Positions 38,491 through 48,170 of a stretch of 64,000 bases of DNA are shown here, in pieces. The stretch's first letter is position 1. Each line of letters opens with the position of its first letter. The notes under the pieces were generated by a model. The model was given only the letters and a program-made list of their open reading frames with translations, had not been told where the DNA came from and did not search any database. Origin of the DNA: Silvibacterium acidisoli (GTDB lineage Bacteria > Acidobacteriota > Terriglobia > Terriglobales > Acidobacteriaceae). The DNA lies in the NCBI GenBank assembly GCA_022870745.1, contig CP085323.1, forward strand, positions 682,001 through 746,000, given 5' to 3'. The translations under genes and the position numbers were made by a program.

Positions 38491-38536
38491 GCTAAATCTC
38501 CTCAAAACAAAAGGTTTATATCGTATTGAATTAACT

Positions 38537-38554
38537 TGTACGACCAATGTACGA
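38537..38554. promoter_or_regulatory. Direct repeat TGTACGA, 11 bases apart, before the integrase
   Basis: TGTACGA occurs at 38537-38543 and 38548-38554, one helical turn apart, immediately before the integrase start. Such spacing suits binding of a dimeric protein on one DNA face (integrase arm site, excisionase or repressor). Function is not shown. Confidence 0.3.
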
Positions 38555-39669
38555 TGGTGTGCATGCTGACGCTCTACCGGCGCCATTCTGCCGATTGCCC
38601 CAAGAAGTCTGACCGTTTTTGGAAACGTTGCTCATGCGCTATGTGGGTCGAAGGTACAACTGATAATGGTAAGTATATTCGCCGTTCTCTTAAGACCTCA
38701 AGCTGGGAAAAGGCTACCCTTCGACAGCGAGAGATCGAAGATGCCGGCTCGGATGTGGCTAACCGCGCAAAGCGGGTTACCGTGCACGAGGCCGTTAGCG
38801 ATTATCTAAAAGATGCGGAAGTCCGCGGAATGGTTCCAAGTTCCATTCGTCAGTTCCGGGCCGTCTACGAGTCTCAATTTCTCGCCTGGTGCAACCAGGA
38901 GAACTACCGACTGATCGCCGAAATTGACCTCGCAGCGCTTCGCGCCTTCCGGAACACATGGGAAGATCAGTCATCCCGCACCCGGCACACCAAGCAGATC
39001 CGGATGAAGCAATTCTTTCGCTTTTGCGTTGCGAATGGATGGATCAAGGAAAACCCAGCGATGGGCCTCACGAGAATTAAGGTCGCGCAGTCCCAGACGA
39101 ACTACTTCCGACCAAAGGAGATGGAGAAGCTGCTTAATGCTGCATTGGCCAGCGATGCCCGCAATGATCACCGTGGCGGGAAGCGTCTCCATGCGCTGAT
39201 TCTGCTGATGCGGTGGAGCGGCCTGCGAATCACGGACGCTGTCACGCTGGAGCGATCGCGTGTCATTAATGGCCAACTGATGCTCTACCAGATGAAGACG
39301 GGTACACCTGTCCGTGTTCCGCTTCCATCGAAGGTTCTCGAGGCCCTCGAAAACGTTCCGCCCGGCATGGCGTCTCATCCCGATTATTACTTCTGGAGCG
39401 GCAACGGAAAGAAAGAGACTGCAGCCGATGTCTTCCATAAAGCATTCCGCAGGCTCGCATCTAAGCACTTCGCGGGCAAGCGAGCCCACCCTCACATGCT
39501 GCGCGATACATTTGCAGTCGAGCTGCTGCTCGCGGGCGTTCCGCTGGATCAAGTTTCAAAACTGCTCGGCCATTCCAATGTGTCAATGACGGAGAAGCAC
39601 TACGCGCCCTGGGTTGAGGCTCGAATGACTCAGCTCGAAAATAGTGTGCGCGCATCCTGGTCAGCGTGA
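38554..39669 (+). CDS. Prophage tyrosine recombinase / integrase
   Basis: The protein (371 residues) has an N-terminal zinc-ribbon-like region with CPKKSDRFWKRCSC, a SAM-like core-binding domain (about 70-165) and the catalytic domain: Arg in SGLRITDAVTL, a Lys in the beta-hairpin, HMLRDTF (His-x-x-Arg), GHSNVSMTEKHYAPW with the second His and the nucleophile Tyr. It catalyses integration and excision of the prophage. Start could be ATG 38554 or ATG 38563. It overlaps the opposite HTH gene by 9 bases at the stops. Confidence 0.92.
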   Translation: MVCMLTLYRRHSADCPKKSDRFWKRCSCAMWVEGTTDNGKYIRRSLKTSSWEKATLRQREIEDAGSDVANRAKRVTVHEAVSDYLKDAEVRGMVPSSIRQFRAVYESQFLAWCNQENYRLIAEIDLAALRAFRNTWEDQSSRTRHTKQIRMKQFFRFCVANGWIKENPAMGLTRIKVAQSQTNYFRPKEMEKLLNAALASDARNDHRGGKRLHALILLMRWSGLRITDAVTLERSRVINGQLMLYQMKTGTPVRVPLPSKVLEALENVPPGMASHPDYYFWSGNGKKETAADVFHKAFRRLASKHFAGKRAHPHMLRDTFAVELLLAGVPLDQVSKLLGHSNVSMTEKHYAPWVEARMTQLENSVRASWSA

Positions 39670-39997: not shown

Positions 39998-40037
39998 GTA
40001 CGGTATGACAGTAATCCGAATACTGCAAGGGAAATTT

Positions 40038-40910
40038 ATGGCGATTAAGGTCAGCTCCCAACGAGCGTTTTCTACCGGAATAGCGAAGAAGCGGACAAAG
40101 AAGACGGCAGTGAAGGCTGCCGAGGTGGCACCGGAAATGGTGCTGGCATTACGTACCTGCGACAAAGACATGAAGGCCTATGGTGGCTTTCAATGGCCGA
40201 AGACTGGTCGTGTAGAAGCTCCGGACTGGAAGAAGACGAAGGAATGCGGTCACGGACTGCACGGTCTACTTCGTGGCCAGGGTGATGGGGGCCTTCTGAG
40301 CTGGGAAGTGGACGCTGTCTGGATGGCTGTTTGGGTTCAGGCGGACCTTGTCGTTGAGCTCGACGGCAAAGTGAAATTCCCCTGGTGCGAGATCGCCCTC
40401 GTCGGTGACCGGAAAACTGTTACAGATTTTCTGGTTGCTAACGGCTGCACTGGCGTTGTCGGAGGCACGGCGACCGCAGGCCACTCCGGCACGGCGACCG
40501 CAGGCTACAAGGGCACGGCGACCGCAGGCCACTCCGGCACGGCGACCGCAGGCTACAAGGGCACGGCGACCGCAGGCGACTACGGCACGGCGACCGCAGG
40601 CTACAAGGGCACGGCGACCGCAGGCGACTACGGCACGGCGACCGCAGGCCACTCCGGCACGGCGACCGCAGGCTACAAGGGCACGGCGACCGCAGGCGAC
40701 TACGGCACGGCGACCGCAGGCTACAAGGGCACGGCGACCGCAGGCCACTCCGGCACGGCGACCGCAGGCGACTACGGCATTCTCAATATCCGCTATTGGG
40801 ACGGAAATCGTGAGCGCATTGCCACGTTCTATGTCGGCGAAGATGGCATCGAGCCAAACGTGCCGTATCGCGTGGATGGCGTTGGCGCTGCCGTGAAGGC
40901 GGTGAAATGA
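40038..40910 (+). CDS. Octapeptide-repeat prophage protein with ice-nucleation-like TxT repeats
   Basis: The N-terminal 25 residues are basic. Residues about 37-140 form a folded domain (FQWPKTGRVEAPDW, CGHGLHGLL, WCEIALVGDRKTVTDFL) of a type seen in small phage proteins (DUF7666-like; low certainty). Residues 143-246 are 13 consecutive octads GTATAGxx, where xx is HS, YK or DY. Read as AGxxGTAT, this matches the ice-nucleation protein octad AGYGSTxT, including the TxT ladder. A short C-terminal cap follows. AAGGG stands 7 bases before ATG 40038. Its stop overlaps the next start. Confidence 0.75.
   Translation: MAIKVSSQRAFSTGIAKKRTKKTAVKAAEVAPEMVLALRTCDKDMKAYGGFQWPKTGRVEAPDWKKTKECGHGLHGLLRGQGDGGLLSWEVDAVWMAVWVQADLVVELDGKVKFPWCEIALVGDRKTVTDFLVANGCTGVVGGTATAGHSGTATAGYKGTATAGHSGTATAGYKGTATAGDYGTATAGYKGTATAGDYGTATAGHSGTATAGYKGTATAGDYGTATAGYKGTATAGHSGTATAGDYGILNIRYWDGNRERIATFYVGEDGIEPNVPYRVDGVGAAVKAVK
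40464..40775 (+). repeat. 13 tandem 24-bp coding repeats
   Basis: Each unit starts GGCACGGCGACCGCAGGC and ends in six variable bases encoding HS (CACTCC), YK (TACAAG) or DY (GACTAC). The order is HS YK HS YK DY YK DY HS YK DY YK HS DY. The first 18 bases are identical in all units, which shows recent expansion or gene conversion; repeat number may vary between strains. Confidence 0.97.
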
Positions 40911-41287
40911 TGCCGACTTCTTCCATCTTTGTTTTCGGATCCAATCTCGTGGGTGCGCACGGCGGAGGGGCTGCTGCGCACGCATTTCACCACTATGGGG
41001 CTGAACTGGGCGTCGGAGAAGGCCCCACTGGTCAGTCCTATGCTCTTCCGACAATGGACGAGCAGATCTCTCCCCGGAATCTCGTTGACATACGCGCGAG
41101 CGTTGAGCGCTTCCTACGCTACGCGGCAGAAAACCCCGGCAACGTGTTTCGGGTGACCCGAGTTGGATGCGGCATAGCGGGTTTCACGGACGCCGAGATC
41201 GCCCCGATGTTCTCAGGCGCTCCTCAAAATTGCGAGTTCGACCCGGCGTGGGCTTCGTTTGGGTTGAAGACATGGAGGTCGGAATGA
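40907..41287 (+). CDS. A1S_2505-like phage non-structural protein
   Basis: The 126-residue protein begins IFVFGSNLVGAHGGGAAAHAF, has GPTGQSYALPTMD, and ends with VTRVGCGIAGFTDAEIAPMF. This set of blocks occurs in a phage-associated family resembling macrodomains (ADP-ribose binding). The role is unknown. Starts overlap the previous stop (ATGATG) and its own stop overlaps the next start (ATGA), so translation is coupled. Confidence 0.7.
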   Translation: MMPTSSIFVFGSNLVGAHGGGAAAHAFHHYGAELGVGEGPTGQSYALPTMDEQISPRNLVDIRASVERFLRYAAENPGNVFRVTRVGCGIAGFTDAEIAPMFSGAPQNCEFDPAWASFGLKTWRSE

Positions 41288-47097: not shown

Positions 47098-47154
47098 ATG
47101 GATTACAAGAGAGAGCGCCCATCGCAATCCCCCAGAACGCGGGGTGTACGGTGA
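47098..47154 (+). CDS. 18-codon leader ORF before the replication-like gene
   Basis: ATG 47098 has AAGGA 7 bases upstream and encodes MDYKRERPSQSPRTRGVR. Its TGA overlaps the GTG of the next gene (GTGATC). The arrangement is a coupling leader: ribosomes finishing it would restart at the downstream GTG, which has no ribosome site of its own. Confidence 0.35.
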   Translation: MDYKRERPSQSPRTRGVR

Positions 47155-48170
47155 TCATCAACGAAGCTGGCCTTTTCAGTGGCGAGCGGCTTGCTAACTG
47201 CTCAGACGAAGCACAGCTACACTGGCCGCGCCTGATGCTGTTGTCGAATGGCTTTGGGCGAGTCGAGCTGAATGCCGCCGGGATTCTCCGTAAGGCGTAT
47301 GCATCGCTCCGAAAGAAGCCCACGCCACAGCAGCTCTCTGCGTGGATCAAGGAATATCAGGATAACTTCCTGCTGTTTGTCTACCGCGCGCCGAATGGTG
47401 CAATGTGGGGCCAGTGGATGACGCCCCAGAAGGCGTTGAAGCGCTTCAAGACCCAGGCTGATCGCGAAAGTCCTGCGCCCGACGAGGCCGCCCTTCAACG
47501 GTATCAGGCGCTCTATGTTGAAACGATCCGCAGTAATTCTTTGGCAATTGACTCATTCCATGAGATTTCCGAAACATGCGGAAATCTTCAGAAGGATTCT
47601 GAAGAGCGCGAAACAGTTCAGAACACTTCTGAAGAGTGCGGAAAATTTCCGCTAGGTGTAGGTGTTGGTGTAGGTGTTGGTGTAGGTAAGAACAAAGACA
47701 ACTACGTTTGCGCAGAGGCAAGCTCTGCGCCGACCGCTCCTAAGCCGAAAATCGCCGGTACTCTTCCTGTAATCGACGGATCTGACTTCGAAATCACCGT
47801 AGACGATCTCGTGCAGTGGCGTGGCTTCTATCCTGCCCTCGACATTGACCAGCAGTTTCGCAGCATGAAGAGCTGGCTGATCAGCAATCCCAAAAACAGA
47901 AAAACGCGCTCGGGAATGACGCGTTTCATCGACAACTGGCTCCGCCGGGAGCAGGACCGTGCGCCTCGTGCAGGCGCGAATGGAGGGTATTCGCATGGAA
48001 GCGGCAATCGTGCCCAGGACAGAACCAACGGCAATCGCGCTGCAGCAGAAGCGGCACTCGCTGGGCTTATGGCTGAGCTTGATGGTGGGACTGGCGGAAG
48101 CGCGACAGGCTTCGGTGAGCGAGGAGACACAGAAGCTCTACGTGAAACACCTGCAGGAGTTCCCAATTGA
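47151..48170 (+). CDS. Putative prophage replication initiator / helicase-loader-like protein
   Basis: The 339-residue protein has a helical N-terminal domain (HWPRLMLLSNGFGRVELNA, AWIKEYQDNFLLFVYRAPNG), a Glu/Ser-rich middle with a perfect Gly-Val repeat (47655-47690), and a DnaT-like C-terminal block (WRGFYPALDIDQQFRSMKSWLISNPKNRKTRSG) typical of phage replisome organisers. Gly/Asn-rich tail. Start GTG 47151 is coupled to the leader ORF. The downstream gene overlaps its 3' end by about 176 bases. Confidence 0.6.
   Translation: MIINEAGLFSGERLANCSDEAQLHWPRLMLLSNGFGRVELNAAGILRKAYASLRKKPTPQQLSAWIKEYQDNFLLFVYRAPNGAMWGQWMTPQKALKRFKTQADRESPAPDEAALQRYQALYVETIRSNSLAIDSFHEISETCGNLQKDSEERETVQNTSEECGKFPLGVGVGVGVGVGKNKDNYVCAEASSAPTAPKPKIAGTLPVIDGSDFEITVDDLVQWRGFYPALDIDQQFRSMKSWLISNPKNRKTRSGMTRFIDNWLRREQDRAPRAGANGGYSHGSGNRAQDRTNGNRAAAEAALAGLMAELDGGTGGSATGFGERGDTEALRETPAGVPN

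Follow-up and report, generated by a model that had tools for sequence, protein, structure and literature searches.

Bordetella phages carry a gene, bbp36, whose repeat array is annotated in BPP-1 as 'variable region 2; VR2'. As recounted from Liu et al. 2004 in the accessible part of PMC2884959, VR2 is built from a 24-bp element, a 19-bp repeat plus one of three 5-bp spacers, present in 9-20 copies depending on the isolate, and bbp36 of BMP-1 is not essential and has no apparent link to tropism. The same part of that paper describes gp54 of mycobacteriophage Tweety, in which the tetrapeptide AAxx units of another short repeat vary in two residues while their third positions are invariant; its authors suggested selection for variation for Tweety's own repeat and linked such repeats to unstructured proteins. 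A different phage system, RII of T4, lets the phage grow on lambda lysogens against RexAB exclusion, according to the portions available of PMC9391042 and PMC8594841. The latter, a 2021 study, calls the rII system long known yet poorly understood, and rIIB is treated as a transcription factor in the consulted part of a jumbo-phage survey (PMC7824862).

The window, by which we mean the whole 64,000-nucleotide stretch of DNA analysed, encodes a new member of the Bbp36/VR2 family, a literature counterpart that the first-pass annotation did not contain. The gene specifies a prophage protein of 290 residues when its start is taken as the ATG at 40038 (an in-frame ATG at 40005 would yield 301 residues), and inside it thirteen 24-bp units run head to tail (Table 1). 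All 13 units share one 18-mer encoding GTATAG, and their last 6 bp come in three variants that encode HS (CACTCC, n = 4), YK (TACAAG, n = 5) or DY (GACTAC, n = 4), exactly the number of units and the residue pairs previously annotated. TRF returned 13.2 copies with a score of 478, against 52-66 for its other three rows in the window. The protein matches PF24703 (DUF7666) with 31 bits at a cut-off of 27 and falls into phrog_18079 of PHROGs (E 8.2e-76). PADLOC returned no match to it, searching PDB sequences with either the whole protein or the profile of its head gave nothing significant, and hydropathy revealed no strongly hydrophobic segment. A DUF4774 match on the repeats (34.7 bits, over the cut-off of 25) was taken as a match of composition, and ORFs running through the array on both strands as by-products of the repeat.

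Table 1. Features of the repeat gene and its prophage surroundings
Feature	Position	Strand	Evidence or remark
Phage integrase, upstream of repeat gene	38536..39669	+	PF00589 3.4e-25
DUF7666 + GTATAGxx repeat protein, Bbp36/VR2 family, 290 aa	40038..40910	+	PF24703, phrog_18079, Bbp36 homology
Residues 1-29, basic tail	40038..40124	+	low model confidence (block means 48, 54, 69 over residues 1-30)
Residues 30-142, DUF7666 head, predicted ADP-ribosyltransferase-like fold	40125..40463	+	alignments and models
13 x 24-bp array, GTATAG + HS/YK/DY; predicted strands on TATA, turns on GxxG	40464..40775	+	
Residues 247-290, conserved C-terminal cap	40776..40907	+	26-protein alignment; strands in model
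A1S_2505-family gene	40907..41287	+	NF049995 142.6 bits; overlaps repeat gene end by 4 nt
C5 methylase	42874		Pfam scan
Terminase large subunit	54321		
Portal	57223		

The repeat gene starts about 370 nt past the integrase gene, with a small, weakly HTH-like ORF between them on the opposite strand, and the genes downstream also include a polymerase processivity-factor-like and a sigma-factor-like gene. The prophage origin proposed earlier is supported because the window holds an integrase, a C5 methylase, an A1S_2505-family gene, a terminase and a portal. We regard the repeat protein as an accessory protein of this phage that is probably expressed early. Elsewhere in the window, a short 6-bp/12-bp tandem repeat occupies 47653-47687 within ORF 47151-48170, for which PHROGs gave no match at E<=0.001.

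The window protein shares with Bbp36 a DUF7666-type head, a 24-bp GTATAGxx array with few spacer types, the same cap and the same downstream gene, bbp37 (the A1S_2505-family counterpart, 56% identical over 116 aa). The two differ in that head identity is 42% across 68% of the query, the N-terminal tail is longer in the window protein than from the annotated start of Bbp36, and the spacers are HS, YK and DY in the window and YR, ES, NY and EK in the Bordetella phages. A search of 50,697 phage records with the head (E<=10) matched eight, of which five are Bordetella phages, some of them duplicates. One scan of viral contigs yielded 56 family loci, to which VR2, an unexplained hypervariable phage locus, is now tied; in a scan of genome contigs, 104 pattern matches reduced to 4 loci. 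DUF7666 was matched by 28 of 29 head sequences at E<=10; for alignment, the start of each homologue was chosen as the last Met before the head. Among 399 genomes of the class, heads occur in the window's own genome and one other, and among 257 genomes of that other genome's order in the same one and as one weak match (E 0.0026). Array variation between close relatives is seen family-wide; no near relative of the window's own phage was found. The literature searched yielded no mention of DUF7666, nor of GTATAG together with phage. One relative, gp48 of Burkholderia phage Mica, is labelled 'ice nucleation protein' in GenBank on the basis of SwissProt BLASTP, and the Bbp36/VR2 assignment replaces this misleading label.

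The units of the family combine a constant scaffold with a variable pair of residues. In 707 octads from 60 ORFs, selected for G at both ends and at position 6 and for at least two of T-A-T-A, the T/A/T/A residues are kept in 684/698/685/687, so the TxT positions highlighted in the first-pass annotation are indeed conserved in relatives. The xx pair takes dozens of forms in the same set. The pattern used to collect whole arrays required G at positions 1 and 6, A at position 3, and A or T at position 5, which makes the zero entropy at the three fixed positions a matter of construction. It gave 78 arrays, among them fragments of a single gene, and 74 hold an exact GTATAG unit. The two xx positions have entropies of 2.70 and 3.35 bits; charged residues make up 39% of xx and are rare at the TATA positions. 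A single 18-mer is found in 38 of the 53 arrays with at least six exact units, and xx types outnumber 18-mers in all 53. Between arrays, the constant 18-mer takes 33 modes among the 74, which differ in silent sites; these differences are silent by construction, because the counts use exact GTATAG units only. Silent differences between arrays and uniformity within them indicate that the peptide recurs with different codons and that arrays are homogenised from within. The same codon differences disfavour a function of the array at the DNA level.

We then compared changes in the variable and constant parts on minimum spanning trees of 32 arrays, namely the longest array of each constant mode with at least three exact units, one of which has a single xx type. 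The trees contain 222 changes at the six xx sites and 21 at the fourfold sites of the constant block, where changes are again silent by construction because only exact units enter. Of their 111 steps, 50 are single-base changes, and none of the 50 is synonymous; random changes that avoid stops would be expected to give 8.0. Not one of 342 xx types uses more than one codon pair within an array. When phages of one constant mode are pooled, 4 of 168 types use two codon pairs, so synonymous xx variants do exist between phages. The codon pattern at xx points to diversifying selection for amino-acid change. Localised hypermutation, as by a diversity-generating element, was not favoured: it should leave more synonymous variants within arrays than the none seen there, and selection is the simpler account. 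This codon-level test of selection across many lineages is new, going beyond what the Tweety authors suggested for their own repeat, and the signature makes a role in an arms race directly testable.

The arrays also change quickly relative to their surroundings. We found 36 pairs of loci whose 360-bp upstream flanks are at least 97% identical (19 at 100%), and no pair has the same array. The flanks were compared without gaps, leaving out the window, arrays shorter than six units and loci with less than 360 bp of flank; the pairs are not independent, five involve arrays cut by contig ends (L030 and L031), one reflects a single-unit difference, the pattern stops short of the end of the L064 array, and one unit of L011 is ambiguous. 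BPP-1, BMP-1 and BIP-1 have identical upstream flanks and carry 14, 18 (as the pattern reads it) and 20 units, and the cassette NY is present in BIP-1 and absent from BPP-1. Across the family, phages whose upstream flanks are identical differ in the number and order of units and in which cassettes they hold. Judged from these comparisons of DNA, the repeated part of the family is rewritten much faster than the adjoining sequence. Arrays vary freely in length, the longest having 26 octads, and of 49 arrays 28 have an even and 21 an odd number of units. In the window array no two adjacent units are equal (P 0.020 by shuffling); this is not a family rule, because equal neighbours across 49 arrays are slightly commoner than in shuffles (0.289 vs 0.245). 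A 16-residue super-period was rejected, identity at lag 2 being without excess (z 0.7). The net charge of xx ranges from -14 to +13 between arrays, which disfavours a single charge-based target and led us to reject an acidic DNA mimic as a rule for the family.

AlphaFold2, run with 26 sequences, modelled the whole protein with a mean pLDDT of 90.9 and the repeat region at about 94-98. Each TATA forms a four-residue strand (three residues in the last), with turns on the GxxG between them. The repeat region is thus predicted by the model to be a beta-solenoid with xx in the turns, as the first-pass annotation had anticipated, and not to be disordered. Foldseek with the whole protein found nothing significant in the PDB (best E 2.5). 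A second-look aligner returned mostly beta-solenoids for the repeat region, led by antigen 43b (Z 6.0, rmsd 3.1, 128 aligned), with cyclase-associated protein and MinC C-domains in lower rows, all three of which we take to be beta-solenoids, and the CsgA fibril among the weak rows (Z 4.2). The solenoid stays a prediction, since AlphaFold2 yields confident yet unrealistic solenoids for perfect repeats, as stated in the accessible part of PMC11795689; stacks of buried charge, a fault described there, need not arise in this family because charge is rare at the TATA positions, which speaks for a genuine solenoid.

The N-terminal part bears out the earlier proposal of a folded domain in front of the repeats, for the head modelled alone reached a mean pLDDT of 95.6. 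W64, CxxGLH (C70-H75), W95 and K111xK113 are conserved in it, and R39 is present in at least 90% of a 26-row alignment and below that in the 29-row alignment. Foldseek of the head against the PDB gave nothing significant (best E 0.56). In a second look at its candidates, 12 of 458 aligned chains reached Z 2, and all nine solved structures among the matches listed for the head, at Z 3.7-4.9, are ART-superfamily folds: TreTu, Tpt1 and Arr twice each, PARP13, PARP16, and residues 589-694 of CNFy. This set is coherent and its scores are low; on such structural models we predict an ADP-ribosyltransferase-like fold for the head. ART catalytic motifs are of the H-Y-E or R-S-E type, and inspection of the 29-row alignment by eye showed no conserved acid where motif III would be expected. 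hhalign with a two-sequence Arr alignment gave E 0.28, with 42 of 100 decoys as good, a comparison of RIIB with Arr gave nothing, and PF01885 (the Tpt1 family) was found in 0 of 81 genomes.

A distant relationship of the DUF7666 head to the C-terminal domain of T4 RIIB is weakly suggested by several comparisons. A BFVD search with the whole protein placed DUF7666 proteins first and returned five RIIB or 'lysis inhibitor' rows with a probability of 1.00 and E 0.016-0.053, which lie outside the eight matches with E<=0.001 and, in rows without target ranges, would match through the head; many unrelated-looking rows, giant-virus proteins among them, also have a probability of 1.00. When hhalign compared 29 heads with 13 RIIB C-domains, it gave E 0.0016 and a probability of 16% over 75 columns, a score attained by none of 200 column-shuffled decoys and by 1 of a further 100 (1 of 300 higher overall). 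DUF7666 was detected below threshold in 2 of the 13 RIIB C-domains (best E 0.023). The two domains share CxxGLH, followed by a V-rich strand pair with DVV and by KxR/KxK. Their sequence similarity is very weak, and the proteins differ in that T4 RIIB has an N-terminal HTH-like region (HTH just under the cut-offs) and no GTATAGxx array, whereas the Pfam scan found no HTH in the window protein. In the parts of the papers that the literature search covered, we came across nothing that describes RIIB as having an ART-like domain. If true, the link would supply a first hypothesis of a biochemical kind for one part of rII. Pfam assigned no family at E<=10 to the T4 rIIB C-terminal domain (L078:3469-3852, minus strand).

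The A1S_2505-family neighbour is found beside the repeat gene in 2 of 66 loci, both of the BPP-1 type (several loci are cut short), and is therefore not established as a general partner. Conserved gene partners were lacking more widely, the most widespread neighbour cluster occurring in 5 of 33 array lineages, a count based on rough gene calls and, at most loci, on no more than 5 kb of flank. When the A1S_2505 profile was compared with the PDB, six of eight rows were macrodomain proteins at non-significant E-values of 0.57-1.1, a single human protein, which we take to be a macrodomain, accounting for five of the six, and hhalign against eight Macro proteins failed, with 33 of 100 decoys as good. 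From these profile comparisons the neighbour may have a distant macrodomain likeness, which gives a lead towards an ADP-ribose theme.

The repeat part looks like an arms-race surface and not like an ice-binding protein. The explanation we prefer, in which our confidence is evenly poised, is that the protein is an accessory phage protein with a recombining, diversifying binding surface that acts in phage-host or phage-phage conflict. Such a role fits diversifying selection in a protein that probably stays in the cytoplasm and is reportedly dispensable; the host-interaction or superinfection role named in the first-pass annotation is plausible to this extent, while the partnership with the A1S_2505 gene on which it leaned was found at the two loci mentioned. 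The protein consists of a small DUF7666 head, a stack of GTATAGxx octads and a conserved cap. We infer that the identical 18-bp block is where slippage or unequal recombination duplicates and shuffles the 24-bp cassettes and that selection keeps the amino-acid diversity at xx, which in the predicted solenoid turns would form a changeable binding or escape surface. In the working model the protein would remain in the cytoplasm, the head would have a conserved task, carried out through a pocket whose basic residues are conserved, and the stack would give fast-changing specificity for, or evasion of, a variable partner; a host defence or the exclusion system of a rival prophage is a candidate. 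TAL effectors likewise combine near-identical repeats with a hypervariable diresidue, although theirs are long helical repeats that read DNA. A TAL-effector-like beta-solenoid, in which the GTATAG scaffold shows along its edges a per-phage xx recognition string, reshuffled by recombination inside the 18-bp block, on a RIIB/ART-like head, is a doubtful elaboration. If true, it would be a naturally evolving modular device by which phages in conflict recognise or evade a partner, and sharing the head with T4 RIIB would open the old problem of rII exclusion to biochemistry.

Several other explanations compete with a conflict surface. The array might be a neutral minisatellite, an unstable repeat tolerated without specific use whose variation is mutational noise; the dispensability of BMP-1 bbp36 (in the accessible part of PMC2884959), the free variation of unit number in both parities and the few synonymous xx variants between phages agree with this, but there is little variation at the fourfold sites of these units, synonymous single-base steps are missing within arrays and the GTATAG peptide recurs across arrays with differing codons, and we find it improbable. 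Somewhat less so, yet still unlikely, is a RIIB-like regulator or anti-exclusion factor, with the stack as a module for oligomerisation or filament formation and xx preventing mixing between phages. The possible kinship of the head with the RIIB C-domain, the need for RIIA/RIIB against RexAB (the accessible parts of PMC9391042 and PMC8594841) and the CsgA row speak for it; none of 17 window proteins scanned was named RIIA, however, and the protein lacks the HTH of T4 RIIB. A catalytic ART and macrodomain pair would follow DarT/DarG-like logic, the repeats selecting a target for the head to ADP-ribosylate and the neighbouring A1S_2505 protein binding or removing ADP-ribose. An ART-like head, a next gene that overlaps by 4 nt and has the same place in BPP-1, and macrodomain proteins among the PDB rows would suit such a pair; set against the lack, as judged by eye, of a conserved acid at the motif III place, the non-significant E-values with the failed hhalign, and a gene pair seen in one Bordetella phage type, they leave it a quite remote prospect.

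Hardly credible, in our judgement, is the ice-binding protein of ice-nucleation or antifreeze type to which the octads had been likened in the first-pass annotation, with TxT ladders on a beta-solenoid ordering water. Read as AGxxGTAT, the unit does agree at A, G, T and T with the octad AGYGSTQT of ice-nucleation proteins (INPs), a consensus given in the accessible part of PMC9418140; both share the octad form AGxxxTxT and a predicted beta-solenoid with TxT positions, and the conserved threonines and the strands on TATA are in keeping with the idea. The INP profile PF00818, however, has no match to the window gene at E<=10, and the head is DUF7666 and unrelated, the Pfam scan of the window protein finding no INP N-domain. 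The INP repeat of the PbINP type, AGYGSTQTAGEESSLT, has 16 residues with an SLT octad and a conserved tyrosine; the unit here has eight residues and no SLT, and the position of that tyrosine is hypervariable in the GTATAGxx family. Thirteen octads also compare with 65 sixteen-residue repeats in PbINP (as given in the accessible part of PMC9418140), hydropathy gives no sign of export, array length varies freely, and the BMP-1 gene is reported not to be essential in the part of PMC2884959 cited above.

Some loci depart from the regular array. Two GTATAGxx ORFs lie close together on each of three contigs (L034, L013 and L038), each ORF with a different array. VR2 of BMP-1 (L064:1894-2391) contains near its 3' end one unit without xx, GTATAG followed by GTATAGES, an irregular in-frame rearrangement. 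In Acinetobacter sp. KCTC 92772 (L069:8001-9119) many units have GTATAADY in place of GTATAGDY, which means that loss of the turn glycine is possible, and a protein of an Eisenbergiella MAG (L071:7629-8972) has similar ATAGDxG repeats behind another N-terminal part.
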